From a virus, in IMG/VR virus record IMGVR_UViG_3300037189_017361, positions 1 to 22,452 of that record: a DNA stretch of 22,452 nt; one strand, given 5' to 3'. The translations under genes and the position numbers were made by a program. The notes beneath the pieces were generated by a model. The model worked only from the letters and a program-made list of their open reading frames with translations, was not told the origin of the DNA and did not search any database. This document shows, piece after piece, positions 1,653 to 19,293 of the stretch (the stretch's first letter is position 1; each line of letters starts with the position of its first letter).

Positions 1653-1661
1653 ATTATATCA
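1653..1661 (-). promoter_or_regulatory. Extended -10 promoter before small fibre gene
   Basis: TGATATAAT on the minus strand is a perfect extended -10. It lies in the 18-base gap just after the TAG stop of the upstream gene. Transcription would begin near 1646, leaving a leader of about 3 bases before the ATG at 1643. I see no good -35. It is one of five such sites in the window, all at gene junctions. Confidence 0.5.
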
Positions 1662-2162: not shown

Positions 2163-3502
2163 TATGAAACACCTATTGAAAATCTAAACTCAACAAAACT
2201 TGTTGTGTTTGGTGACTTTATGATGGTTGTTGAGTCTGTATTTTTTATCACTGAATATCCTGTTAGTCCATATAAAGGATTAGTTGTAGCAACATTCTCT
2301 AATCTCATGGCATCAAGTGCAATATAAAAATCATCTGAAATAGTATTGCTAACAAAAGTAGAAGCATAAACCTTAATTACAGAAACAGAGTTCCAAGTAA
2401 AGTTAGGGCTTGTGTATAATTCTTGTAATTGTTTTGTAACTAAACAATAACGATTATTATTTAAGTCATACTGCCCTTCTCCAGTTCCCTTTACTATGTC
2501 TGCTTCAAACCTAGCATACTCACCATCTATTTGGTCTGAAGATGCAAACTCAACAAGAACTCTTGCATTATCTGGAGATGCACTAGAAGTACCATCTTTA
2601 TTAATAATAGAAAATGCTAACTTTAATTCATCAATTGGAGAGTTTTTATCAAAATCAAGTAATGTGCCAGCGAGGTGGATATGGTTTGATCCATTTTCAA
2701 TATAAAAATGTTTAACTGTGGTTGATCCACCAGAAACATAACTTCCTATTTGATTACTTAAAAGCGTAAAAGTTGTTGGTGACGGAACAGTTGAAACAGA
2801 ACCAGATATATTGTAGTTTACTGGATTTACTCCAGTTACTGTTACAGTATCGCCAATTGAAAGATTGTGATCCTTTAATGTTGTATAAGTAATTAATGTT
2901 CCATTACCAGAAACATTTGTTAGTGAAACGCTCTTTGTTAGGTTTGCATCTGAGCCATTAATGACAATAACATTATTTAAAAATCTACATCTTTCATATC
3001 TTTCAGCACGAGTGGTTTTATAAAAAATACTATTGTCTGCATTTGTTTGAAAAACAATATTTTCTGTTGCAATAATATTGTCATCATTTGGCGAGTCTAA
3101 TGCTTCAGTTATCGTATTTATAGCAGTTGTTGCTAAATTTGTATGATGTTGCCAATTCTCTGTTTGTGTAAAGGCAAGTACTGTTTTGCTATCGTATGCT
3201 CCTGCTGCCGAATTTGATCCCGCAGAAAAAATACCAATCTCTGAAATTTCATATCTTTCTTCGCTTGGAAGTTCTGCTGTTAAAACTAACTTTGAAACCC
3301 CATCCTCATTAACAAACCCTCTAGAAGAAATTGGCACTCTTAACATCTCAAAATCCAGGCTTGTCTTGTTTGAGTAGTCTCCATATGGGGTACCAGTTAA
3401 AAGTGGCTTAGAACCGCATCCAAGGGCTATATAGGACGCAAAAGCGGGTGCTTGTCCAAGCAAATATTTTCCTATAATATTTTTACCAGTATTAGTTATC
3501 AT
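2162..3502 (-). CDS. Minor tail / collar-fibre-like protein
   Basis: This 446-residue structural protein has three visible parts. Residues 1 to about 120 resemble the N-terminal attachment domain of phage tail-collar and fibre proteins, including an early G-K-x-x-I-x-x-Y-L-L-G segment, a P-I-S-S-R-G strand and the E-R-Y-E-I-S-E-I-G-I-F signature. Residues about 190-265 form an inserted beta module with the pattern H-N-L-S-I-G-D-T-V-T-V-T-G-V, then Y-N-I-S-G and T-T-F-T-L, a unit I know from many aquatic phage structural proteins. Residues about 268-446 form a further beta domain that could be carbohydrate-binding. The start overlaps the preceding stop (TAATG) behind GACGGAG. It is likely part of the adhesion apparatus. 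A catalytic function is not apparent. Confidence 0.75.
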   Translation of the reverse strand: MITNTGKNIIGKYLLGQAPAFASYIALGCGSKPLLTGTPYGDYSNKTSLDFEMLRVPISSRGFVNEDGVSKLVLTAELPSEERYEISEIGIFSAGSNSAAGAYDSKTVLAFTQTENWQHHTNLATTAINTITEALDSPNDDNIIATENIVFQTNADNSIFYKTTRAERYERCRFLNNVIVINGSDANLTKSVSLTNVSGNGTLITYTTLKDHNLSIGDTVTVTGVNPVNYNISGSVSTVPSPTTFTLLSNQIGSYVSGGSTTVKHFYIENGSNHIHLAGTLLDFDKNSPIDELKLAFSIINKDGTSSASPDNARVLVEFASSDQIDGEYARFEADIVKGTGEGQYDLNNNRYCLVTKQLQELYTSPNFTWNSVSVIKVYASTFVSNTISDDFYIALDAMRLENVATTNPLYGLTGYSVIKNTDSTTIIKSPNTTSFVEFRFSIGVS

Positions 3503-8609: not shown

Positions 8610-9236
8610 TTATGCCTCTTCTAAACTAAGTGTTACATTCCAAAGATCATGATTGCTTCCACCTCGGCGAACAACAGAGTAATTAAAACTTGAAAAATAA
8701 ACTTCAATGACCTGGTTATATTGATTTAAATGTAAATATGGGTTATCAGTGTTTTCAAAATTTTTATATTTGTCATATGCTAAAAACATCCAAAATGAGC
8801 CTTTGTGGTTTTCATACCAATCAAGAAGTTCTGATCCGCCTGCTCCTCCATCAGCGGTATACGGGGCTGCATCAGTTATTGAATTTTGAAAAGAAAAATT
8901 AGGGTCAGAGTCATGTGATCTTGATGGCAAGTTAGTCCATGAAACAGACATTTGTAGTTTATCTGCAATGTGATATGATCTCATTCTTCCATTAATTGTT
9001 CTTTGACGTTGTTCAATTCTTTGTGAAGTAAAATCCATTTCATTACGATTATGGTCAGATAAAACTAAGAACTGATCAATTAGATTTGGGTTAGCATCTT
9101 CTGGGTAGTTTCCACCAACCTCATACCCAGTTGGAACATACAAACCGTCAACCAGTGTTCCAGGATTCTCAGACCACAAAATACCTTGAGGTCTTTGATA
9201 TTTCCTTCTTTGAGTCATGTATGCTACTGTTGCCAT
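8610..9236 (-). CDS. Minor tail protein in distal-tail (Dit) position
   Basis: This 208-residue protein lies between the tape measure and the tip protein, where siphoviruses encode the distal tail protein that joins the tube to the tip. The N-terminus is basic (MTQRRKYQRPQGILW). The centre has a strand with M-S-V-S-W-T-N-L-P and the motif AAPYTADGGAGGSELLDWY, followed by G-S-F-W-M-F-L-A-Y and two beta strands at the C-terminus (IEVYFSSFNYSVV, LWNVTLSLEEA). This beta/W-rich pattern is familiar from minor tail proteins of actinobacterial and aquatic phages, and a tube-like fold is plausible. The ATG at 9236 overlaps the tape measure stop (TAATG) with AGAGGAC upstream. Assignment as Dit rests mainly on position. 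Confidence 0.7.
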   Translation of the reverse strand: MATVAYMTQRRKYQRPQGILWSENPGTLVDGLYVPTGYEVGGNYPEDANPNLIDQFLVLSDHNRNEMDFTSQRIEQRQRTINGRMRSYHIADKLQMSVSWTNLPSRSHDSDPNFSFQNSITDAAPYTADGGAGGSELLDWYENHKGSFWMFLAYDKYKNFENTDNPYLHLNQYNQVIEVYFSSFNYSVVRRGGSNHDLWNVTLSLEEA

Positions 9237-12200
9237 TACCTTTGTCCTCTAATTCTTTGGTTATCAATGTTTCTAATCTGAGTAATAACTGCCCTTGCAA
9301 TATCATCTGTACTTGCATTAGTATTAGAAACGTTAACGTTTATACCATAATTATACACTGAGTTGGAGTTGTTATTTACTGATGCCACTGTTGACTTTCC
9401 AGACTGATAGGTTCCATCATTAATTGCCCTGAGATTATCAACACCAAACTTTTTTACGGCAAAGCGCTTGACAACAAATTCTCCTGGGGTAAGCATAGAT
9501 GGCACTGTGTCAGTTCCACGAGAATATCCTCCATCTGCAAAATATTTTGGAACTATTCCACCAGAAGCAAGATATTTAGGAACTAGACCTCCAGAAGATA
9601 AGAAATACATTCCCTTTAACATACCGCCAGCACGAGGGCTAAGATTTCTTGCCATTTGATCTGAATAGTACATTTCTGCTTTACCACGATCTCCGCCAAA
9701 ATTTTCATTTAATTGTTTAGTTGTTAATCCAGAAACAACACGGTCTACTTCTTTTACTGCTGAATCAACTTCTTTAGTAACATTTCCCATTGTTAGAGAA
9801 GGATTAGAAGTATCTTCTTTTTTAGGTGTAGGAGTTGGTATTGTAGCATTAGTAGTTGCGGTACCTGCAACAACCTTTGCTGATGCAGAAGCAACCTTTA
9901 ACCATGCTGCTTCAATTCCACCTACAGCAGAAATTATTTCATTAATATCTAAAACTTGTTGGTCAAGTGCATTATTAACAGTATCAACAGCAGTTTTAAT
10001 TGCTTCATATTCTGCCTGAGTATATCCATTAATCTCAAACAATGCTTGTGCTTTTGCAATTTGTTGATCATGCGCTTCAACAATTTTATTTCTTGCATTA
10101 ATTTCATCAGTCAATGCTTTTATTTGATTTTCTTCAATTGATGCAATTTTGTCAACTAATTGCTGCCTTGTATATGTAATGCCGTTAATTGTAGTTGTAA
10201 GTGCTGCAATATCTTTAAGTTTTTGTTTTTCAAGAATATCTTTTCTTGTATTTAAAGCATCAATAGCCGATGATTCAGATGCTCTTGCTCTATTTGAACG
10301 ATACTGTTGTGCTGCCATGGCTGCTGCTGCAATGTCTCCAGAGGTAATTGCGCCTGCCAAATCAAGTTGATCTCTTTGCTGATTTGCAATTTCTTCATTG
10401 ATTTGAGAAACCTTTTGTAATGCAGATATTTGCTCATCAATAAGAGTATTCTTTTGTATATAAGAATCATTGATTGAACTTTCAAGTTTGTCCAACACAG
10501 TAAATCCATTATTTAATACGTCAACCTGCTCTTGCAATGCCTGCTTTGCATTTTCTCTTTCTTGAGTAATAACTTGATATTGCTCAACCGACATTCCATT
10601 TGCTTTTCTAAAACTAGCCATTCCCTTAGCAATAATTTTTGCATTTTCAGCAGCAAACTTTTGTCCCATTTTATCTGATTCAGATTCTTGCAACTGCTGT
10701 AGTTCAAACAATAAATCCTTATATTCTTTTGCAGACTTAATCATATTAGGAAATTCATCTTGTATCTTTCCAGTTGCGTCTAGTACATTTGCTGCCCAGT
10801 CTGACTTTCCAATAATCTGCAAAATTGTTTCAAATTCAATTCCAGAATCTTTTAACTTTTTAAATGCATCTATTTGCATTTTAATTTGAGAGTTTTCTTG
10901 GAATTGTTTTGCGGTAGTTTCTCTATTTAGTAAATCTCTTCTTTCTTTATTTATTGCAACAAGAGATTCAAGTTCTTCTTTTGAGTAAATAACTCCATTG
11001 GCAATATCTCCTACTAAAGATTGATTCTTTAATAAGTCAAGTGTTTCTGCTGCAGTAAATTTATATTGCTTAGCAACATCAGTTAATTTCCAATATGCAT
11101 TAACACGATCTCTGATTTCATCATTTGATTTCTTTTCATCTTCAATATATTGCCCAATAGTATTAGTTTTAAATGCGCTATTGATATCAATAAAGTCTTG
11201 CTTGAGTCCAGTTATTCTTCCTTCTTTGCCAACAGTAAATAATGTTTTTGCCCAAATATTAAACTGTTCTGGGTCCATATTCATTAAAATTTCACGGAAG
11301 TCATCAGATAAACCACCAACATTACCAGCAAGGGCAAGTTCATCAATTTGTTTAATTGCACCTAGTTGTTTGTCAAGAGACTTATTGCTTTTTACGCTTC
11401 CCCCGCCTTGTCCAGAAATATCTCCGCTAAGGAATTTTTGGATTGACTTTAATGGATTTAAAGCATCTATTGATGAATCTTTTACAAGTTTAAGTTTTTG
11501 TGCAAGGTCAACTAGCCAGGAGTTATCTTTCTTGGTTCCTTCACCACCTGTTGCTCCCCCACCTGACTTAGATGTGCTTGGTATAGAAGTTCCAAATATT
11601 TCAGTCATTGCAATTTCTTCTGCTTTTGTTCTTATCTGTGGATTATTTTTTGCAAAAGCGTCAAGTGCAGACTTAGTAATTTTTCTTGCTTTTGGATTTG
11701 CTTTTCTATATGCAGCAAGAACTTCTCTATTTACGATAGTATCAAAAGAGTCTGACTTATTCAATGCTCCCAAAGTTATCATTGCTTGGAATTGTAACTC
11801 TTTAGGAAGTTTAGAAAGAGTTGTCCAACTTTCAATTGCTTTATCAAGAGTTAGATTATTTCCTGGTCCACCAGACTTTTGTTGTAAATCTACTAAAGCC
11901 TTAAGGTCAATTTTTCCATTAGGAAAAGCCTTCTTTAAAGAACCAACTTCTTTTCCAAGTCTCTTTAATGTAGGAATATCATCTTTCTGTGTTTCAAGAT
12001 CTATTTCAATTCCTATGTAATCTGGAATCTTTATAAGTTCTTCAAGTCCAGAATATATATCGTTGGCAGATGCTTCATCTAAATTCTTAATTGCAAAAAG
12101 AATATTTTTTTGATTATTTACATTTGGAATAAATTCCAAAATACTTGCAAGTCTTCCTAAGCCTTCTGTTCCTTGAACATTTAGTATTGTATTAATTGTT

Positions 12201-15200
12201 CTATCAATATTTTTTTCACCTGTAGCAAGAAGTGTTGTTGTTAATGCTTTTGCCTGAGTCACTGTCATTTGATCAGAATTAACCAAAGTCATTATTTCAA
12301 TTTGTGCTTTTGCAGTTGTTCCTTCTAATTGTTTTGTAAGTGATTCTGCTTGAGCCTTTTGGTATGGATCATCCTTAAACTTATTCAACAGTTGCTGTTT
12401 AAATGCTCCAGCATATTTATTTTTGCCTTCTTGTGTTCCTATTTGGTCAATATAGTCTGCAGCAGTTTTTGCTTGTGCTGCTTGGCTTGCTCTTAGTGTT
12501 GCAAGCGCTGAAGCCTTTTTGCCTTCAATTCTTGTAATTTCTACTTCAACTGCTGCTCTTTCTGCTTCTGTTTTTGCAAGTTTTTTCTTTACTTCAAGAT
12601 TTGCAAGGGCAACATCATATTCTTTTGTTACTGCATCAATTCCTTGCTGTCCAGCCAATATATTTTGGGTTACTATTCCAGCAAGAGTTCCTGCATTCTT
12701 TGCAATAAACTTCTTTTCTTCTCCCTGTTGCCACTTTCTTAATAGCCACTCTGCTGTGCTTGTTATGGCAAGTGATCCTGCTGCTGCGATCAGTGCAGGT
12801 GATGCTGCTCCTGCTGTTCCTGCGGTTGCTGCTGCTGTTCCAGCAGTTGCTGCAGCAGTTGCTGCTCTTGCAGTTCTAACTGTATTCAAAATCTTTATAA
12901 AACTTGCACTTCCAACAGTTGCTGCCAAACCTTGCATTTGTGCAGTTTCGCTCCAGTTTATTGGATTACCAAGTATTGCACCGCCTGGTTGTTCATTAGC
13001 ACGATTTCCTCCAACACCCTTTAACGGATTCAGTTTAATGTCTGGGCCAATTCCCTTATTTACATCTGTAATTGCTTTTTGATAATTTAAGAATATTGCT
13101 TCTTGTAAAGTTTTTCCTTCTGAAATAAGTTTTACCTGAACAGACAATGGATCTGTTACTAGGTTTTCTCCATTAGGTCCTAAAATTTCTGTTAATTTGC
13201 CACGCACATTCATTTCTAATCTTGCATCTTTTAGATCTCTTGTTAGTTTAATTGCAATTGATTGAGCCTGTTCTGGGGTTATTACGCCCTGTTGTACTGC
13301 CGTTGCTAATTGTGAGGCTACTATGCTTGCTGCTTGAGCAGTTCCAGATTCTCCAAGAGTTTTTATTGTGCTATCAAAATTTGCCTTAAATTGTTTTCCT
13401 GCTTCAGAGTTTAAGAAATTAGTTCCATAGTCCATTGAGACTGGGGTAATTTCTTTTGTTCTTCCTTCTCTTTGTGCTGCTGCTACTTGTCCCACAGAAA
13501 CCTTTTGAGTATATCGTCCTAAAGCCTCAAGATTTTCTGTAGTCATTACCATTGCTTTTGCTTGTTTTTCACCATCAACTAACGACTGTTTAATTTGACT
13601 TGATTGCATTTTAAATACTGCTGAAAGGCCAATCAACGATGTTGCTAAAATTTTAATAGGGCTATTAATTAATGGAAGAAGCATAGGAAGCATAGAAAGC
13701 ATCATTATCTTATCCATGTTTTGTGCAACACCACTATCTGGATTCTTTGCTGCATATGCTCCTGCTACCATAGGAACCATCATGGCTGCCATACCGACAC
13801 CCATCATTCTTTGACTTCGCTCCATACGCATTGCCTGTCTTGCATTTGTTCTTTGTGCTGCAGTTAATCTAGATCCAGTTTCATCTACTTGAGGTACCCT
13901 AGAATACCCAGTCATAAATCCTCTAAAACCTCTTGTTTTGTCTGTGCCAAAATCTTGTGTTGTTTGTGATGCTGTTGTTCCAAGCAAAGAAACTCTTGGT
14001 GTTGTTTTTCCTATTTCTTTTCCAAAACTATCAAGTCTTTCTGCAATTTTTTTAAATCTTGGTCTAGAGAATAGTTTATCAATTCCCTTTTCAATTCTTT
14101 CTTGTCCCCTTGTACCTTGTGATGGTGAAGAATCCCAAGGATCATCATATTTTCCGCCTGGTCTTAATGATGCTGGAACACCAAATCCAGGACCATTTTC
14201 AAAACCAGGTATTTGGTTTGACATAATTCCAGATATAAGACCGCTATATTTTTTACTTTGCTTTGCAGGAATTACCGCTTCACCAGGAGCAAGCATTGCA
14301 GGTTGAATGTCTCCCGCTCCCTTTGGACCAGGAACTGACAAAATTCCATTAGAAAGCATAAGCAATTCATCTTGTCTTGTCTTATACTTTTCATAAAAAC
14401 CATCTCTAATTCTTTTTTCTAAAGCAAGCATTCCATACTTATCAAAAGAATTTGGATTCTTTTTTGATCTTAATTCTTGAAGAAATGACTCTGCTTCTCT
14501 TCTAGTAGAGATGTGTGTTCTATTTCCATTATAAAGATACACAAGATTCATTTGGTTTGTATCTTCAAAAAGATTAGATGCTACATCTTGATCTGCACTT
14601 CTTTTATTAGTTTTTGCTGCTTCTCCATGGCTTAGTGCTGGAGAAAGTCTAAACATTCCTCTATCTTGTTTTTCTGCAAGAATATCTTTAAGTCTTCTTC
14701 CTTCAATTTTTGCAGCAGGAGCAGTAAGTTTAACTAAATCATCCATAGTCATTGATGGATTATTTCTAATATACTCTTCTTCTTCCTTAAAGTATTTCTG
14801 TAATGCTAAAAATTCTTTCTTTTGAATATATCGTGTTCTGCGTGATTTTGCTGCTGAAGAAACAGCACTAGTTCTTTTTCCACCAAGAGTTGAACTAAAA
14901 ATTTTACTTGCTGTTAGATCTTGTGCATTTTTTCTTGAAAGTAAGTCTCTTATATTTCTTAGCAAAATTTCATCACTATTATTTGTGTTCTTTGCTTTGA
15001 ACCTACCATAGTTTTCATTATATTTTGCTTGGTCTTTTACAGAATTAAATTTTCTGGTAAACAACAAATCCCCATTAAAGAAAACATCAGTTAACTTTGG
15101 ATCTTTTGCATTTGGTCTAAAGAAAAACGGTGTCATTGACGAAACATTTGATCTTGGCAAAACCTGTGGAACATCTCCACCAGGAAGAGGCTTAAATCTA

Positions 15201-17485
15201 GTAACTCCTAATGCTCTTACGGAACCTGGAGAAGTTAAGTCTATTTTTGGCTCAAAAACTTTTGCTGCTGGACCAAATATTGCAGAACCAGTTACTTTTG
15301 GTGGTGTCCAGAATCCTGGGCCACTTGCAAATCCTGGAACATTATCACTAATAATTTGAGAAATAAAACCACCGTATTTAGCAGTTTGTTTTGCTGGAAT
15401 AACTGACTCTCCAGGAGACAACATTGCTGGAACAATATCTCCTGCCCCCTTTGGTCCTGGAACACTTTCTGTTCCTTTTGCAAATCGTTTTGGAGCAATT
15501 CCTCTTGGAACAAATAGCCCACTGTTGTTTGCTGCAAATGAACTCATTGATGTATTTGCTTGACGATATACTGACATCAATGCACCAAGTGACTGTGCCT
15601 CTAATCTATATGCTGCAGATAGTGCTTCATGCTTTGTATAAAGTGCATTTGTTATAGATGCATTTTCTAGTTCTTCTTGTGATAAGTATTGTGTTTTTAG
15701 TGCAACATCCTGTGATCCATATGCAAGTTGCTGATAACCCTTACGCATTAAGTTAAACAGTTTTAGCATATTGGCAATACCGTTGGCAACAAGACCTACA
15801 GTCATCAATAGAACTGGGCCAATTCCACCTATTGCAGTGATCATTAGCCCTGCAAACTTTTTAACACCTTCTGGCAAAGTAGAAAATCTATCAAGAATTT
15901 TTTGGAAAAACTCTGCAATAGGAATTACCATCTTTGCAAACATTTCTCCTATTGGAGCCATGGCAACCTTAAGTCTTTCAGCAGCCTGTGCAAGTTTATT
16001 CATTGCAGAATCTGCTTGGGTTTTCTTTTCACGTTCTGTAAGTATTGCCAGTTCTTCTGCGCTGGCTGTTGTTAGTTGCAAAACTCTGGCTGCCTGAGAT
16101 CCTTCTTTTGTAAGGTTATTAAGAAGTGTACTCATTCTTGCAAATTGATACTTACCAAAAACTTTTTCAACTACTTGTGCTCTCTGCAAGTCTGTAAGTG
16201 GCTTTAATGCATTTGCAAAACCAACTACAGTATTTCTTAGATTACCCTGATTGGCTTCAACTATTCCCTTGATGCTTATTCCATATTGTCCTGCTGCTTT
16301 GCTTGCTGCTTTTGTTGGGTTAATTAAAGATGCAAGACCTGACTTAAGTGCGTTAGCACCTTGTTCTGCAGAAATTCCACCTTCTTTCATTGCAGTCATA
16401 AAATATGTTAAGTCTTTAACATCTCCACCAAGCGCTTTTACGATTGGAGCAACTCTTGGGATTGCTTCTGAAATATCTTCCAAACTTAATACAGTTTGGT
16501 TTTCTGTAGCATTCAAGAAGTCAATTGTTTTTTTAAGTTCTGACCCTCTAATATCAAAAGCATTTTGCAAAGATATTGTTGTATTGAGTGCTTGCTCCTG
16601 TGTAATACCACCAAGAACTGCTAAATCTGTAGTCTGCCTTACAATATTTTTAAGATTTTCTCCAGTGTTACCCATTGCTGCTGCATCAGCAGCCATTTTA
16701 ATTGTATCTGAAACTTTAACTCCATAAGCAGTATATTCATTTGCAAGTGCACGAATATCTTTTAGTGCTTTTGCAGACTCACCACTCTCTGTGTATATAT
16801 CTCCATATACCTTTTTAAATCTAATAACCTGTGTTTCAAGTTCTTTAAATGTTTTTATTGCTGATCCAGCAAACATGGCTAATGGTATTGTGAAACCAAC
16901 CATCAACTGACGACCAGCCCACTGTGTATTCTTACCAAAGTTTAATAGTTTTGTTGAGCCATCATCAATAAGTTTATTTAGTACTTGGTGACGTTGAGTA
17001 GCCAACATTAAACTAGTAGTTAAATCATTATAATTTAATGTTTTTGGTCTAAACCTCATTGAGTTCATTGCTCCCTGAGCGTCACGACCCAACTGAACAT
17101 ATTGCTGCTGAAGTGTTTTTACACGATTATCTATTAACTTACTTACAGTGCTAAATTCGCTACCAAAAAACTTACCGAAAGTTTTTGTAGAAGCCATTCC
17201 ATATCTGTAATATTCTTTAAGAGATAACTTTCCCTTATCAAGACTATTAGCAAACTGTTCTGTAGCACTGCTCATCTTCATTGTTGATGCAGTCCAGAGT
17301 CCAGTTGCATTAACGTTGTGCATTAATGACTGGGCATATCTGCCTTGCTCACGAGCAGCAGTTGAGGTGCCAGTAATCATGGCACGGTTAAGGGCAGTTA
17401 ACTCTTTTTCTAAGGCACGAAGTTGTGCCATGGCTTGAGTTGTATCAATACCTATAAAAATATTGGTATTAGTATCTCCTGCCAT
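9236..17485 (-). CDS. Tail tape measure protein (TP901-type core), 2749 residues
   Basis: This protein sets tail length and is ejected ahead of the DNA. Residues about 205-480 match the TP901-type tape-measure core: F-K-E-L-E-T-Q-V-I-R-F-K-K-V-Y-G, A-A-D-A-A-A-M-G-N-T-G, and G-G-I-S-A-E-Q-G-A-N-A-L-K-S-G. Hydrophobic stretches lie near 543-580, 1226-1290 (rich in M, A, G) and 1535-1585 (a run of A, T and G), and could insert in the membrane during ejection. Residues about 2250-2500 look coiled-coil. A 53-residue G/P-rich unit occurs at 674-726 and 1050-1102, with a diverged copy of its core near 2654-2693, and a 10-residue tandem repeat sits at 2632-2651. The ATG at 17485 follows AGGAGG. No peptidoglycan-hydrolase motif was seen. 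At about 1.5 angstrom per residue the tail would be about 410 nm. Confidence 0.92.
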   Translation of the reverse strand: MAGDTNTNIFIGIDTTQAMAQLRALEKELTALNRAMITGTSTAAREQGRYAQSLMHNVNATGLWTASTMKMSSATEQFANSLDKGKLSLKEYYRYGMASTKTFGKFFGSEFSTVSKLIDNRVKTLQQQYVQLGRDAQGAMNSMRFRPKTLNYNDLTTSLMLATQRHQVLNKLIDDGSTKLLNFGKNTQWAGRQLMVGFTIPLAMFAGSAIKTFKELETQVIRFKKVYGDIYTESGESAKALKDIRALANEYTAYGVKVSDTIKMAADAAAMGNTGENLKNIVRQTTDLAVLGGITQEQALNTTISLQNAFDIRGSELKKTIDFLNATENQTVLSLEDISEAIPRVAPIVKALGGDVKDLTYFMTAMKEGGISAEQGANALKSGLASLINPTKAASKAAGQYGISIKGIVEANQGNLRNTVVGFANALKPLTDLQRAQVVEKVFGKYQFARMSTLLNNLTKEGSQAARVLQLTTASAEELAILTEREKKTQADSAMNKLAQAAERLKVAMAPIGEMFAKMVIPIAEFFQKILDRFSTLPEGVKKFAGLMITAIGGIGPVLLMTVGLVANGIANMLKLFNLMRKGYQQLAYGSQDVALKTQYLSQEELENASITNALYTKHEALSAAYRLEAQSLGALMSVYRQANTSMSSFAANNSGLFVPRGIAPKRFAKGTESVPGPKGAGDIVPAMLSPGESVIPAKQTAKYGGFISQIISDNVPGFASGPGFWTPPKVTGSAIFGPAAKVFEPKIDLTSPGSVRALGVTRFKPLPGGDVPQVLPRSNVSSMTPFFFRPNAKDPKLTDVFFNGDLLFTRKFNSVKDQAKYNENYGRFKAKNTNNSDEILLRNIRDLLSRKNAQDLTASKIFSSTLGGKRTSAVSSAAKSRRTRYIQKKEFLALQKYFKEEEEYIRNNPSMTMDDLVKLTAPAAKIEGRRLKDILAEKQDRGMFRLSPALSHGEAAKTNKRSADQDVASNLFEDTNQMNLVYLYNGNRTHISTRREAESFLQELRSKKNPNSFDKYGMLALEKRIRDGFYEKYKTRQDELLMLSNGILSVPGPKGAGDIQPAMLAPGEAVIPAKQSKKYSGLISGIMSNQIPGFENGPGFGVPASLRPGGKYDDPWDSSPSQGTRGQERIEKGIDKLFSRPRFKKIAERLDSFGKEIGKTTPRVSLLGTTASQTTQDFGTDKTRGFRGFMTGYSRVPQVDETGSRLTAAQRTNARQAMRMERSQRMMGVGMAAMMVPMVAGAYAAKNPDSGVAQNMDKIMMLSMLPMLLPLINSPIKILATSLIGLSAVFKMQSSQIKQSLVDGEKQAKAMVMTTENLEALGRYTQKVSVGQVAAAQREGRTKEITPVSMDYGTNFLNSEAGKQFKANFDSTIKTLGESGTAQAASIVASQLATAVQQGVITPEQAQSIAIKLTRDLKDARLEMNVRGKLTEILGPNGENLVTDPLSVQVKLISEGKTLQEAIFLNYQKAITDVNKGIGPDIKLNPLKGVGGNRANEQPGGAILGNPINWSETAQMQGLAATVGSASFIKILNTVRTARAATAAATAGTAAATAGTAGAASPALIAAAGSLAITSTAEWLLRKWQQGEEKKFIAKNAGTLAGIVTQNILAGQQGIDAVTKEYDVALANLEVKKKLAKTEAERAAVEVEITRIEGKKASALATLRASQAAQAKTAADYIDQIGTQEGKNKYAGAFKQQLLNKFKDDPYQKAQAESLTKQLEGTTAKAQIEIMTLVNSDQMTVTQAKALTTTLLATGEKNIDRTINTILNVQGTEGLGRLASILEFIPNVNNQKNILFAIKNLDEASANDIYSGLEELIKIPDYIGIEIDLETQKDDIPTLKRLGKEVGSLKKAFPNGKIDLKALVDLQQKSGGPGNNLTLDKAIESWTTLSKLPKELQFQAMITLGALNKSDSFDTIVNREVLAAYRKANPKARKITKSALDAFAKNNPQIRTKAEEIAMTEIFGTSIPSTSKSGGGATGGEGTKKDNSWLVDLAQKLKLVKDSSIDALNPLKSIQKFLSGDISGQGGGSVKSNKSLDKQLGAIKQIDELALAGNVGGLSDDFREILMNMDPEQFNIWAKTLFTVGKEGRITGLKQDFIDINSAFKTNTIGQYIEDEKKSNDEIRDRVNAYWKLTDVAKQYKFTAAETLDLLKNQSLVGDIANGVIYSKEELESLVAINKERRDLLNRETTAKQFQENSQIKMQIDAFKKLKDSGIEFETILQIIGKSDWAANVLDATGKIQDEFPNMIKSAKEYKDLLFELQQLQESESDKMGQKFAAENAKIIAKGMASFRKANGMSVEQYQVITQERENAKQALQEQVDVLNNGFTVLDKLESSINDSYIQKNTLIDEQISALQKVSQINEEIANQQRDQLDLAGAITSGDIAAAAMAAQQYRSNRARASESSAIDALNTRKDILEKQKLKDIAALTTTINGITYTRQQLVDKIASIEENQIKALTDEINARNKIVEAHDQQIAKAQALFEINGYTQAEYEAIKTAVDTVNNALDQQVLDINEIISAVGGIEAAWLKVASASAKVVAGTATTNATIPTPTPKKEDTSNPSLTMGNVTKEVDSAVKEVDRVVSGLTTKQLNENFGGDRGKAEMYYSDQMARNLSPRAGGMLKGMYFLSSGGLVPKYLASGGIVPKYFADGGYSRGTDTVPSMLTPGEFVVKRFAVKKFGVDNLRAINDGTYQSGKSTVASVNNNSNSVYNYGINVNVSNTNASTDDIARAVITQIRNIDNQRIRGQR
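9407..9526 (-). repeat. Tape measure unit, diverged third copy near C-terminus
   Basis: Residues about 2654-2693 contain YSRGTDTVPSMLTPGEFVVK, the same D-x-V/Q-P-x-M-L-x-P-G-E-x-V core as the two internal units, followed by a K-K-F-G-V-D-N-L helix. Only the core half is shared. This form of the motif is familiar from the ends of many tape measure proteins. Confidence 0.7.
9533..9592 (-). repeat. Two tandem 10-residue repeats in tape measure C-terminus
   Basis: Residues 2632-2651 are GGLVPKYLAS followed by GGIVPKYFAD, with a further G-G starting a third unit. They lead straight into the diverged P-G-E unit. Confidence 0.8.
14180..14338 (-). repeat. Tape measure 53-residue unit, copy 2
   Basis: Residues 1050-1102 of the tape measure begin SVPGPKGAGDIQPAMLAPGE, with the same length and the same G-P-G-F ending as copy 1. 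The DNA has drifted at third positions, which argues for an old duplication kept by selection on the protein. Confidence 0.85.
15308..15466 (-). repeat. Tape measure 53-residue unit, copy 1
   Basis: Residues 674-726 of the tape measure begin SVPGPKGAGDIVPAMLSPGE and end in a V-P-G-F-x-x-G-P-G-F strand. They align without gaps to copy 2 at 14180-14338, with about 34 of 53 residues identical by eye. The two copies are separated by 323 residues of unrelated sequence. Confidence 0.85.
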
Positions 17486-17507: not shown

Positions 17508-17840
17508 TTATTCGTTTTGCGCTGATGAAAGTGCAATTAGTGCAGACTCAGTTAGATTAATTCCTGATGCTGCTTCAATGATTTGATATACGGTTGGAAG
17601 ATCAATAATGTCCTCAAGTTTTGCAATGTCCCCCGCCACCTCTGGTGCATACTGCTTCATAGCAATTTGTACACACTCAATAAGAAGTGTCATTGACTTA
17701 TCATTGTTATCTTGTACCTTTGCCAGACCTTCAAACTTCTTCATAAATTCACGAAGAAGAGAAATTTTTAATGGTCTGATATTAACCTTAGTACCGTCAA
17801 TCAAAACGATTGTTTTTTCTTCATTTACGGTAGTGCTCAT
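17508..17840 (-). CDS. Tail assembly chaperone, short form (paralogue of the next upstream gene)
   Basis: This 110-residue protein probably coats and protects the tape measure before tube assembly, like the G-type chaperone of lambda-like phages. Residues about 9-95 are clearly homologous to the first domain of the gene just upstream. Both share P-L-K-I-x-x-L-R-x-F-M, L-I/V-E-C-V-x-I-A-M-x-Q-Y-x-P-E and D-L-P-T-V-Y, then an A-x-G-I end. It stops after ALSSAQNE, with no room for a frameshift extension because the tape measure starts 22 bases later. The ATG at 17840 has a strong ribosome-binding site (TAGGAGGGG), and its own extended -10 box ends 31 bases upstream. The chaperone role follows from position before the tape measure and is well supported. 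Confidence 0.82.
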   Translation of the reverse strand: MSTTVNEEKTIVLIDGTKVNIRPLKISLLREFMKKFEGLAKVQDNNDKSMTLLIECVQIAMKQYAPEVAGDIAKLEDIIDLPTVYQIIEAASGINLTESALIALSSAQNE

Positions 17841-17870
17841 CTATTTTACCCCTCCTATAAGGTTAAGTTA

Positions 17871-17879
17871 ATTATAGCA
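17871..17879 (-). promoter_or_regulatory. Extended -10 promoter before short chaperone and tape measure
   Basis: TGCTATAAT on the minus strand overlaps the TAA stop of the long chaperone gene. A start near 17864 would give a leader of about 24 bases holding the TAGGAGGGG ribosome-binding site. It would drive the short chaperone, the tape measure and the tip genes. Part of the box is fixed by coding and stop codons, so chance is harder to exclude here than at the other sites. Confidence 0.45.
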
Positions 17880-18588
17880 TAACAGAAGGGTCTTTTAGAT
17901 CTTCATAATCTAGGCCTAAGCCAATACCAAATCCAGCCTTTTGTGCATTAACTCCCTGCAGTGCTAAAACATCATTGGAATCATCTGTAGCGCCTTTAGA
18001 AAATACTCTTGCTTTTAGGTCATCCCATTCTTTTTGTCCCTTTGTTTCTCCAGCCTGGGAATCAATATCTACTCCTTGAATTGCTGCCATAAACTTTTTT
18101 TCTTGATAACTTAATTCTCTAATTGCAGACATTGTTGCTACTAGTTCAGGCATTGATAAATTTCTTTCTAATTGGTCATAATCTTTCCAAATTCCCAACG
18201 TAAAAATTTCAGCCTCAAGTTTAGCAAGATCTAGGTCTTTCCATGATGTTTTTTCATCTGACTTTATTGCCTGATCTTTTACATTTTCTTCTGAATTACT
18301 ACTTACTTCTATTCCACCAGCAATATCTAAAACTTTATATACAGTTGGAAGGTCCATGTTGTCTTCAATAAGTTCTATTGATGTTGATATTTCTGGGCAA
18401 TACTGCTCCATTGCTATTCTTACGCATTCAACCAAAATAGATATGGCTTCATCTTCTGTACTTGATTCATTAACTTTATGGAAACAATCCATAAAATCTC
18501 TTAGGTATTTTATCTTTAATGGACCAAGTTCAAGTTCTCTGCCATTAATTAACTTTATTTTTTGTACATTATATATTCTAGTAGCCAT
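17872..18588 (-). CDS. Tail assembly chaperone, long two-domain form
   Basis: This is a 238-residue protein from the ATG at 18588 (MATRIYNVQK). A GTG at 18618 would add 10 residues, but it lies inside the terminator hairpin and is unlikely. Residues about 7-91 are paralogous to the whole folded part of the short chaperone downstream. After an acidic linker (SSNSEENVKDQ) comes a second, helical domain (about 112-185, WKDLDLAKLEAEIFTLGIWK, then ELVATMSAIRELSYQEKKFM) and a charged tail. This matches a fused G+T type chaperone, the product other phages make by frameshifting. There is no Shine-Dalgarno sequence in front, and the -10 box upstream places the predicted transcript start exactly on this ATG. 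The long form presumably binds the tape measure and recruits tube subunits. Confidence 0.82.
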   Translation of the reverse strand: MATRIYNVQKIKLINGRELELGPLKIKYLRDFMDCFHKVNESSTEDEAISILVECVRIAMEQYCPEISTSIELIEDNMDLPTVYKVLDIAGGIEVSSNSEENVKDQAIKSDEKTSWKDLDLAKLEAEIFTLGIWKDYDQLERNLSMPELVATMSAIRELSYQEKKFMAAIQGVDIDSQAGETKGQKEWDDLKARVFSKGATDDSNDVLALQGVNAQKAGFGIGLGLDYEDLKDPSVML

Positions 18589-18594
18589 TATTTC

Positions 18595-18603
18595 ATTATA
18601 CCA
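18595..18603 (-). promoter_or_regulatory. Extended -10 promoter giving a leaderless chaperone mRNA
   Basis: TGGTATAAT on the minus strand ends six bases before the ATG at 18588, so the standard start point (seven bases past the last T) is the A of the ATG. The region where a -35 would lie is inside the terminator hairpin and has no -35 match. The downstream gene lacks a ribosome-binding site, which agrees with leaderless translation. Confidence 0.6.
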
Positions 18604-18636
18604 AACAACAAAGCCCACCTCCGAAGAGATGGGCCT
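18604..18636 (-). terminator. Intrinsic terminator after major tail protein gene
   Basis: On the minus strand, 19 bases past the tail-tube stop, GCCCATCTC pairs with GAGGTGGGC (one G-U pair) around a TTCG loop closed by C-G, the extra-stable cUUCGg tetraloop. The stem can extend by G-U and A-U to 11 pairs. TTTGTTGTTTGG follows as an interrupted U tract. The form is that of a factor-independent terminator. Confidence 0.82.
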
Positions 18637-18654: not shown

Positions 18655-19293
18655 TTATGAAGCAGGTGTCCAGGTACGATCTACGATCTTACCATATGAA
18701 CCTGATGTGTCTTCTGGAAGAAGACGGAATGAAACCTCAAACATAGATGCTTCGTCACGCTTTGCTGATACTGTAACATTTTCAATAGAAAGTGCACGGT
18801 ATGCTGTGTAAACACGCTCTACGTAAGAAGAATCTACGCAGTCTCCTGTTCCTGGGCCTACTGCAACGATAGCACGTTCAACTGGACATTCGCCGATATC
18901 TCCTGCGGAAAGATTCAATGCTCTTCCGTTTGAAGTTGACTTTGTTCCTGAAAGTTCGTCATCGTTATAAGCCAAAGAAAGAAGAAGGTTTTCTAGTGTT
19001 GCTTCAGCAAAAGCAGTAGCAAGGTTTACCTGCATACCCTGCTTGTAAAGTTTAGCAACGTCAAGAATCTGGTCAACTCTAACTTCACCGAAGTCAGGTT
19101 GGAACTGCAGTTCAAGACCATTCATTGTGTAACCAACATTGGTATAATCAGCATCATTTGTAAGTGTATCTCTGAAAGTCTTTGAAGACTCAAAAGCAGT
19201 TACATCTGCTGGTGTTAGTGTTGTGTCAGCAATAAATACTGCTGCTGCACCAACGATAATGTTAGTTGATGTACCACGACTATAGTTAGCCAT
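18655..19293 (-). CDS. Major tail (tube) protein
   Basis: This 212-residue protein lies between the tail-terminator-type gene and the chaperones, the standard place of the tube subunit. It begins MANYSRGTSTNIIVGAAAVF, then shows alternating strands and short helices, and contains Y-T-M-N-G-L-E-L-Q-F-Q-P-D-F-G-E-V-R-V-D-Q, a motif of the type seen in tube proteins of aquatic and actinobacterial siphoviruses. The C-terminal part has E-V-S-F-R-L-L-P strands. Its G+C content and use of CGT arginine codons look higher than in neighbouring genes, as expected for the most abundant tail protein. It has its own extended -10 promoter, a long leader with AGAGGTG, and a strong terminator behind, so it forms a single-gene transcription unit. 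Confidence 0.87.
   Translation of the reverse strand: MANYSRGTSTNIIVGAAAVFIADTTLTPADVTAFESSKTFRDTLTNDADYTNVGYTMNGLELQFQPDFGEVRVDQILDVAKLYKQGMQVNLATAFAEATLENLLLSLAYNDDELSGTKSTSNGRALNLSAGDIGECPVERAIVAVGPGTGDCVDSSYVERVYTAYRALSIENVTVSAKRDEASMFEVSFRLLPEDTSGSYGKIVDRTWTPAS

Follow-up and report, generated by a model that had tools for sequence, protein, structure and literature searches.

Nearly all long-tailed phages make both of their tail assembly chaperones by ribosome slippage. The window (the whole 22,452-bp stretch that was analysed, from an uncultured virus of 34% GC) raises the question of whether two tandem sister genes can take the place of such a frameshifting gene and, if so, of how the ratio of the two products would be set. 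The analysis indicates that a large group of phages, mostly environmental and uncultured, appears to use two sister genes, not ribosome slippage, for the two chaperones.

Tandem and frameshifting forms of the chaperone locus

The recognisable genes of the window all lie on the minus strand, where the major tail protein (MTP) gene is followed by genes for a 238-aa protein (LONG) and a 110-aa protein (SHORT) and then by the tape measure protein (TMP) gene. The MTP gene (18655..19293) was identified by phrog_2175 (E 2e-34) and by a place and length matching those of annotated Streptomyces phage MTP genes, and the TMP gene (9236..17485, 2749 aa) by phrog_10030 (E 1.6e-84) and the Pfam family PhageMin_Tail (E 3e-29); LONG and SHORT were assigned from their ORFs, homology and predicted folds. 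SHORT occupies 17508..17840, and the TMP gene, which has its own Shine-Dalgarno sequence and no promoter, starts 22 nt past its end. This is the spacing given in the initial annotation, which had also described LONG as a plain single ORF; both points were confirmed, with LONG running through 17872..18588 from a conserved ATG at 18588. An in-frame GTG at 18618 was rejected as the LONG start, as it falls in the terminator/promoter region and is not a conserved start.

Homology between SHORT and the first part of LONG had been proposed from the motifs P-L-K-I, L-x-E-C-V and D-L-P-T-V-Y, and PLKI, LVECVRIAMEQYCPE/LIECVQIAMKQYAPE and DLPTVY are indeed common to both proteins. The two N-domains share 41 of 102 residues (40%; BLASTP, E 1e-25), and a profile-profile comparison of 45 LONG with 52 SHORT or G proteins gave a match of 99.9% probability (E 6e-37) that was confined to the N-domain, so that a failure of the N-domains to match as profiles, which would have refuted the proposal, was not seen. 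Both N-domains match phrog_10504 (E 2e-20 and 9e-21, the latter for LONG residues 1-100, 18289..18588), and the LONG N-domain is a homologue of Streptomyces phage G as well as of SHORT. The second domain, present only in LONG (residues 115-238, 17875..18246), matches phrog_10474 (E 7e-14) and is a separate -1 frame in relatives.

The nature of the second domain was addressed by comparison with 132 phage records that gave tblastn matches. In Streptomyces phages of the Stanwilliamsviridae, LONG matched one place per record in two pieces, namely a G gene, for which the annotation is tail assembly chaperone, and a -1-frame T ORF, with the TMP gene next; the Yaboi and Stigma records were deposited with a joined CDS, the length of which fits a -1 shift. 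Because the Streptomyces phage T ORFs align across the whole LONG C-domain, with the motifs LExExFxLGIWK and KKFxA in common, LONG corresponds to a G fused in frame with T, and SHORT to G alone. The earlier suggestion that the second domain is T-like is thus upheld, since it matches the T part of frameshifting relatives and not, as would have refuted it, something else. The best explanation, for which the genetic support is good, is that SHORT would be G and LONG a permanent in-frame G-T fusion. Both phrog_10504 and phrog_10474 are listed as being of unknown function in PHROGs; their position, frame and relatives identify them as the two parts, G and T, of a tail assembly chaperone.

Five scans of viral contigs yielded more than 350 loci, which were sorted by profile and frame. 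A fused N and T, followed by N and then TMP, was present in 260, and in the other 93, which have no second N, N and T lie in separate frames ahead of TMP. The tandem order is represented by 182 distinct environmental sequences, and the recurrence of the same pair, spacing and order in all of them argues that it is not due to chance. The single-copy form is represented by 65 distinct sequences, and in all of them the end of G is overlapped by a T that lies in the -1 frame; many of these phages are environmental contigs with a G near SHORT (e.g. L198, L175 and L164).

The sister loci mostly keep a canonical slippery site. An in-frame canonical heptamer stands at one place in the G/T overlap of 50 of the 65 distinct single-copy loci (GGGAAAC in 33, CCCAAAT in 13, CCCAAAC in three and GGGAAAT in one), and the remaining 15, all Streptomyces-like, have CCCGGAA at the same place. 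In these phages of Boydwoodruffvirinae type (L001, L002, L054 and 12 similar loci) CCCGGAA is invariant and the overlap contains no X XXY YYZ string; CCCGGAA is possibly a non-canonical slip site. No conserved heptamer was found in the tandem genes: of the 182 distinct loci, 155 lack any heptamer at the LONG junction and 163 lack one in the SHORT tail, and in none of the 182 does a T-like frame come after SHORT. Even SHORT of L234, which still reads GGGAAAC, is not followed by a T frame.

The programmed G-T frameshift is therefore present in the single-copy relatives and absent from the tandem loci, where T is in frame with the N-domain of LONG. The initial annotation had held that SHORT has no T-like frame to shift into, which is true of the window and of all tandem loci, and had raised the possibility of a duplication with loss of the slippery site among related phages, which the survey bears out: the sisters keep the -1 frameshift and the tandem loci do not. 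For the loss of the slippery site this rests on sequence only. As judged from these loci, members of this chaperone family (phrog_10504 and phrog_10474) have either the frameshift or the tandem genes and never both, and the comparison provides good support for replacement of an ancestral frameshift by the tandem genes.

Two further loci from the scans are of separate interest. A scan of bacterial genomes for hosts gave a single match, to a contig of an uncultured cyanobacterium MAG (L390) carrying the single-copy frameshift form with T in another frame, and this contig probably comes from a phage and was placed with the MAG in binning. In the 7.5-kb contig L050, a near-exact 34-bp tandem repeat (3331-3460) interrupts LONG by a frame change and stop, with SHORT intact. 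This locus was considered as a frameshifting intermediate and rejected, as the repeat brings an in-frame stop; it was regarded as a product of misassembly or as a defective variant.

Origin of the second copy

The same two-gene layout could have arisen without tandem duplication, if a G from a frameshifting relative had been captured beside a fused G-T. We regard such an acquisition as possible, although we do not favour it. In the N-domain tree the 32 LONG rows fall together in a single clade (100/99); a second clade (97/91) unites SHORT with the environmental single-copy G, and the Streptomyces G lie outside both. Taken at face value, this tree would mean that LONG branched off first, ahead of the divergence between SHORT and single-copy G, and thus either that the duplication is older or that SHORT was captured. 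However, LONG evolves faster than the other proteins and is pulled toward the Streptomyces outgroup, and a tree holding LONG and SHORT together was not rejected (AU p 0.26). For these two reasons the choice between duplication and acquisition remains unresolved.

Acquisition also draws support from a conflict between the chaperone and TMP trees, which suggests that recombination happens at this boundary. In the TMP trees the frameshifting L341, L345 and L360 nest among the tandem phages, beside the lineage of the window (100/99). Their T domains are closest to those of frameshifting phages, as are the MTPs of the two that hold one. The AU test rejected the tandem TMPs as one clade in an alignment of 714 columns with fewer rows (p 0.0003), for a group named after the first tree had been seen, and did not reject it with 420 TMP columns (p 0.11). 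The T tree is itself unresolved, and the fused T as one clade was not rejected. The conflict points to recombination between the chaperone and TMP genes in L341, L345 and L360, as far as can be inferred from trees, and suggests that one TMP lineage can work with either of the chaperone arrangements.

Starts of the two genes and the ratio of their products

The two genes of the window carry different putative start signals. In the MTP/LONG interval, an intrinsic-terminator-like hairpin (18611..18636, minus strand), of the same kind as in related LONG upstreams, is followed by an extended -10 promoter, TGGTATAAT (18595..18603, minus strand), with 6 nt from its end to the LONG ATG and no Shine-Dalgarno sequence. 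The extended -10 promoter of SHORT, TGCTATAAT (17871..17879, minus strand), overlaps the LONG stop codon and precedes a Shine-Dalgarno sequence, AGGAGG (17851..17856, minus strand).

This layout is conserved. Among 135 distinct relatives, the LONG upstream has a -10 ending 5-14 nt before the ATG in 128 (8 expected from shuffles), a terminator-like hairpin in 133 (1 when shuffled) and a Shine-Dalgarno sequence in none (26 expected from shuffles). Among 154 distinct relatives, the SHORT upstream has a -10 at 20-38 nt, typically about 26 nt, in 152 and a Shine-Dalgarno sequence in all 154, and no terminator-like hairpin was found in the 60 nt upstream in these 154 cases. The single-copy frameshifting G has a Shine-Dalgarno sequence in 53 of 53 cases and a -10 at 20-38 nt in 49, and the TMP upstreams, examined as a control, gave no promoter signal. 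In three related phages, TGNTATAAT was enriched over a reversed control (79 versus 20 in total, both strands).

Because the extended -10 ends 6 nt before the ATG and there is no Shine-Dalgarno sequence, the LONG mRNA is predicted to be leaderless; it looks so from these signals, an inference made with transcript starts unmeasured. A start of this kind unique to LONG was ruled out, since each of two related phages has it at about ten further genes. On contigs L379-L384 (108 kb) and L385-L389 (92 kb), some ten genes in each phage lack a Shine-Dalgarno sequence and are preceded by an extended -10 that ends 6-9 nt before the ATG, so that their transcripts are likely to be leaderless. In the window itself, TGATATAAT at 1653-1661 (minus strand) stands 9 nt ahead of the ATG of the gene at 1203-1643, a possible very-short-leader or leaderless start. 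The leaderless-like start would be a general habit of these phages, and the specific point is its presence in the fused copy and its consistent absence from the short one.

In phage lambda, G coats the TMP, T recruits the MTP, and a ratio near 30 gpG to 1 gpGT is crucial (PMC5009743); in TP901-1, the particles formed when a permanent G-T fusion takes the place of the frameshift have tails but are not infectious (PMC4493119). From lambda's need for excess G and the failure of the TP901-1 fusion, it follows that a fused G-T alone should fail and that a fused G-T with a separate G should work. We consider it probable that SHORT is G, that LONG is a G-T fusion that replaced the frameshift, and that the ratio now comes from two transcription and translation starts, although the part concerning the ratio is inferred.

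The ancestor would have had one frameshifting gene, with G GGA AAC or a similar heptamer and T in the -1 frame. Two genes would have replaced it, the slippery site disappearing, the upstream copy becoming fused to T and the downstream copy remaining without T. SHORT may then be the abundant G that coats the TMP and LONG the scarce G-T whose T domain recruits the MTP. LONG would be expressed as a leaderless mRNA from the extended -10 promoter right after the MTP terminator, and SHORT from the second extended -10 promoter with its strong Shine-Dalgarno sequence and perhaps also from the upstream promoter, there being no stop to the LONG transcript reading on into SHORT. The G to G-T ratio, formerly set by slippage, would be set by promoter strength and initiation mode. 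Homology, fusion, loss of the slippery site, the conserved promoter and Shine-Dalgarno layout and the existence of frameshifting relatives can be read from the DNA itself; a greater amount of SHORT than of LONG, and promoters as what sets the ratio, are inferred on indirect support, with no expression data and the host unknown.

The initial annotation had attributed the ratio to two promoters. Two are indeed present, but promoters alone probably do not set the ratio, because the initiation modes differ, leaderless for LONG and by a Shine-Dalgarno sequence for SHORT. A tentative alternative nevertheless places control mainly at transcription, through a weak LONG promoter, read-through and synthesis of SHORT from both promoters, with leaderless initiation incidental. 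It is consistent with the commonness of leaderless starts in these phages and with the occurrence of a perfect TATAAT as the -10 in 33 of 135 LONG but 149 of 154 SHORT upstreams, and the absence of a terminator-like hairpin upstream of SHORT implies that SHORT would be transcribed from both promoters. It does not account for the lack of a Shine-Dalgarno sequence from every LONG upstream when single-copy G always has one, which suggests that losing the leader either was selected for or became fixed along with the switch. In M. smegmatis, reporters without a leader yielded less protein than those with one (PMC7148126); a leaderless mRNA does not have to give little protein, however, because M. 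tuberculosis translates such mRNAs robustly (PMC8485053).

Possible residual slippage, chaperone identity and known systems

We think it improbable that cryptic recoding in LONG still yields the short form, with SHORT an extra paralogue in another role. A-rich or other X XXY YYZ strings do occur in 27 of 182 LONG junctions, and T TTT TTA in EVFL codons is found in many members of one LONG subclade. Neither string is conserved, however; the junction of the window has neither (T TTT TTA is missing from others also), and the other 155 junctions have none. A hidden frameshift in LONG or SHORT was also rejected on in-frame X XXY YYZ scans, which gave no conserved string, and SHORT has exactly the extent of G and is placed where a G product is needed.

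The chaperone function of the two proteins (TMP and MTP binding, with G in excess) is inferred from homology, position and a weak fold match. LONG and SHORT sit between MTP and TMP, as the G and G-T chaperones of siphophages do, and at the gene level, the proteins not having been observed, two products share an N-domain that in one is extended by a T domain. The AlphaFold models are of middling confidence (mean pLDDT 68 for LONG, about 84 in its N-domain, and 76.5 for SHORT). Chains of 2OB9, a tail assembly chaperone of HK97, were the top two PDB matches of the SHORT model, both of them weak (E 0.27, TM 0.43), and its best named match among predicted viral proteins was a tail assembly chaperone (E 5.8e-7). 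The LONG model matched predicted chaperones, namely a tail assembly chaperone (E 1.1e-4), a tail tape measure chaperone frameshift protein and GT of phage N15 (E about 0.01). These model-based matches agree with the chaperone assignment and would not carry it alone. PDB profile searches with LONG and SHORT gave nothing credible, prion chains among the matches being rejected as chance helix matches, and Pfam gave nothing above its cut-offs. That LONG and SHORT are some other small proteins between MTP and TMP, as the missing PHROGs function and Pfam match would allow, is very unlikely, since relatives in the same place bear the annotation tail assembly chaperone, with a -1 joined CDS in two cases, and the predicted folds match tail chaperones first.

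We therefore return to the reading of SHORT as G and LONG as a G-T fusion, which makes the function ordinary, that of tail chaperones, and the gene arrangement unusual. The conserved -1 frameshift of long-tailed phages was described by Xu, Hendrix and Duda (2004), as cited in PMC5009743. Like lambda gpG/gpGT, the tandem genes lie between MTP and TMP and encode a short G and a longer form in which an N-domain of the same kind is followed by a second domain; unlike lambda, these phages have two genes, a fused ORF, separate promoters and no slippery site. They share phrog_10504 and phrog_10474, gene order and a promoter after a terminator with the Stanwilliamsviridae (Coruscant, Samisti12, Yaboi and Stigma), which differ in having a single G with a Shine-Dalgarno sequence, T in the -1 frame and no paralogue. 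The TP901-1 gpG-T mutant likewise has a fixed in-frame G-T fusion gene, but there the fusion is laboratory-made and takes the place of the frameshifting gene, whereas the natural fusion of the tandem phages has a separate G beside it. Another published pair of chaperone ORFs likewise has no evident frameshift and is said to be separately expressed, and the passage on that pair does not describe a paralogous G with a fused G-T. Searches of the open-licence literature gave no description of tandem paralogues that encode G and a fused G-T.

We give about even chances to the wider proposal that a whole lineage replaced its frameshift by duplication and subfunctionalisation, that contrasting initiation modes supply the ratio, and that the two solutions are exchangeable beside one TMP lineage. 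For annotators, the tandem phages need no frameshift join. The locus also illustrates how a recoded gene can become two ordinary ones. With a large clade lacking the frameshift and sisters retaining their canonical slippery sites, nature has set up an experiment that asks whether the frameshift as such matters, or merely the proportion of the two proteins.
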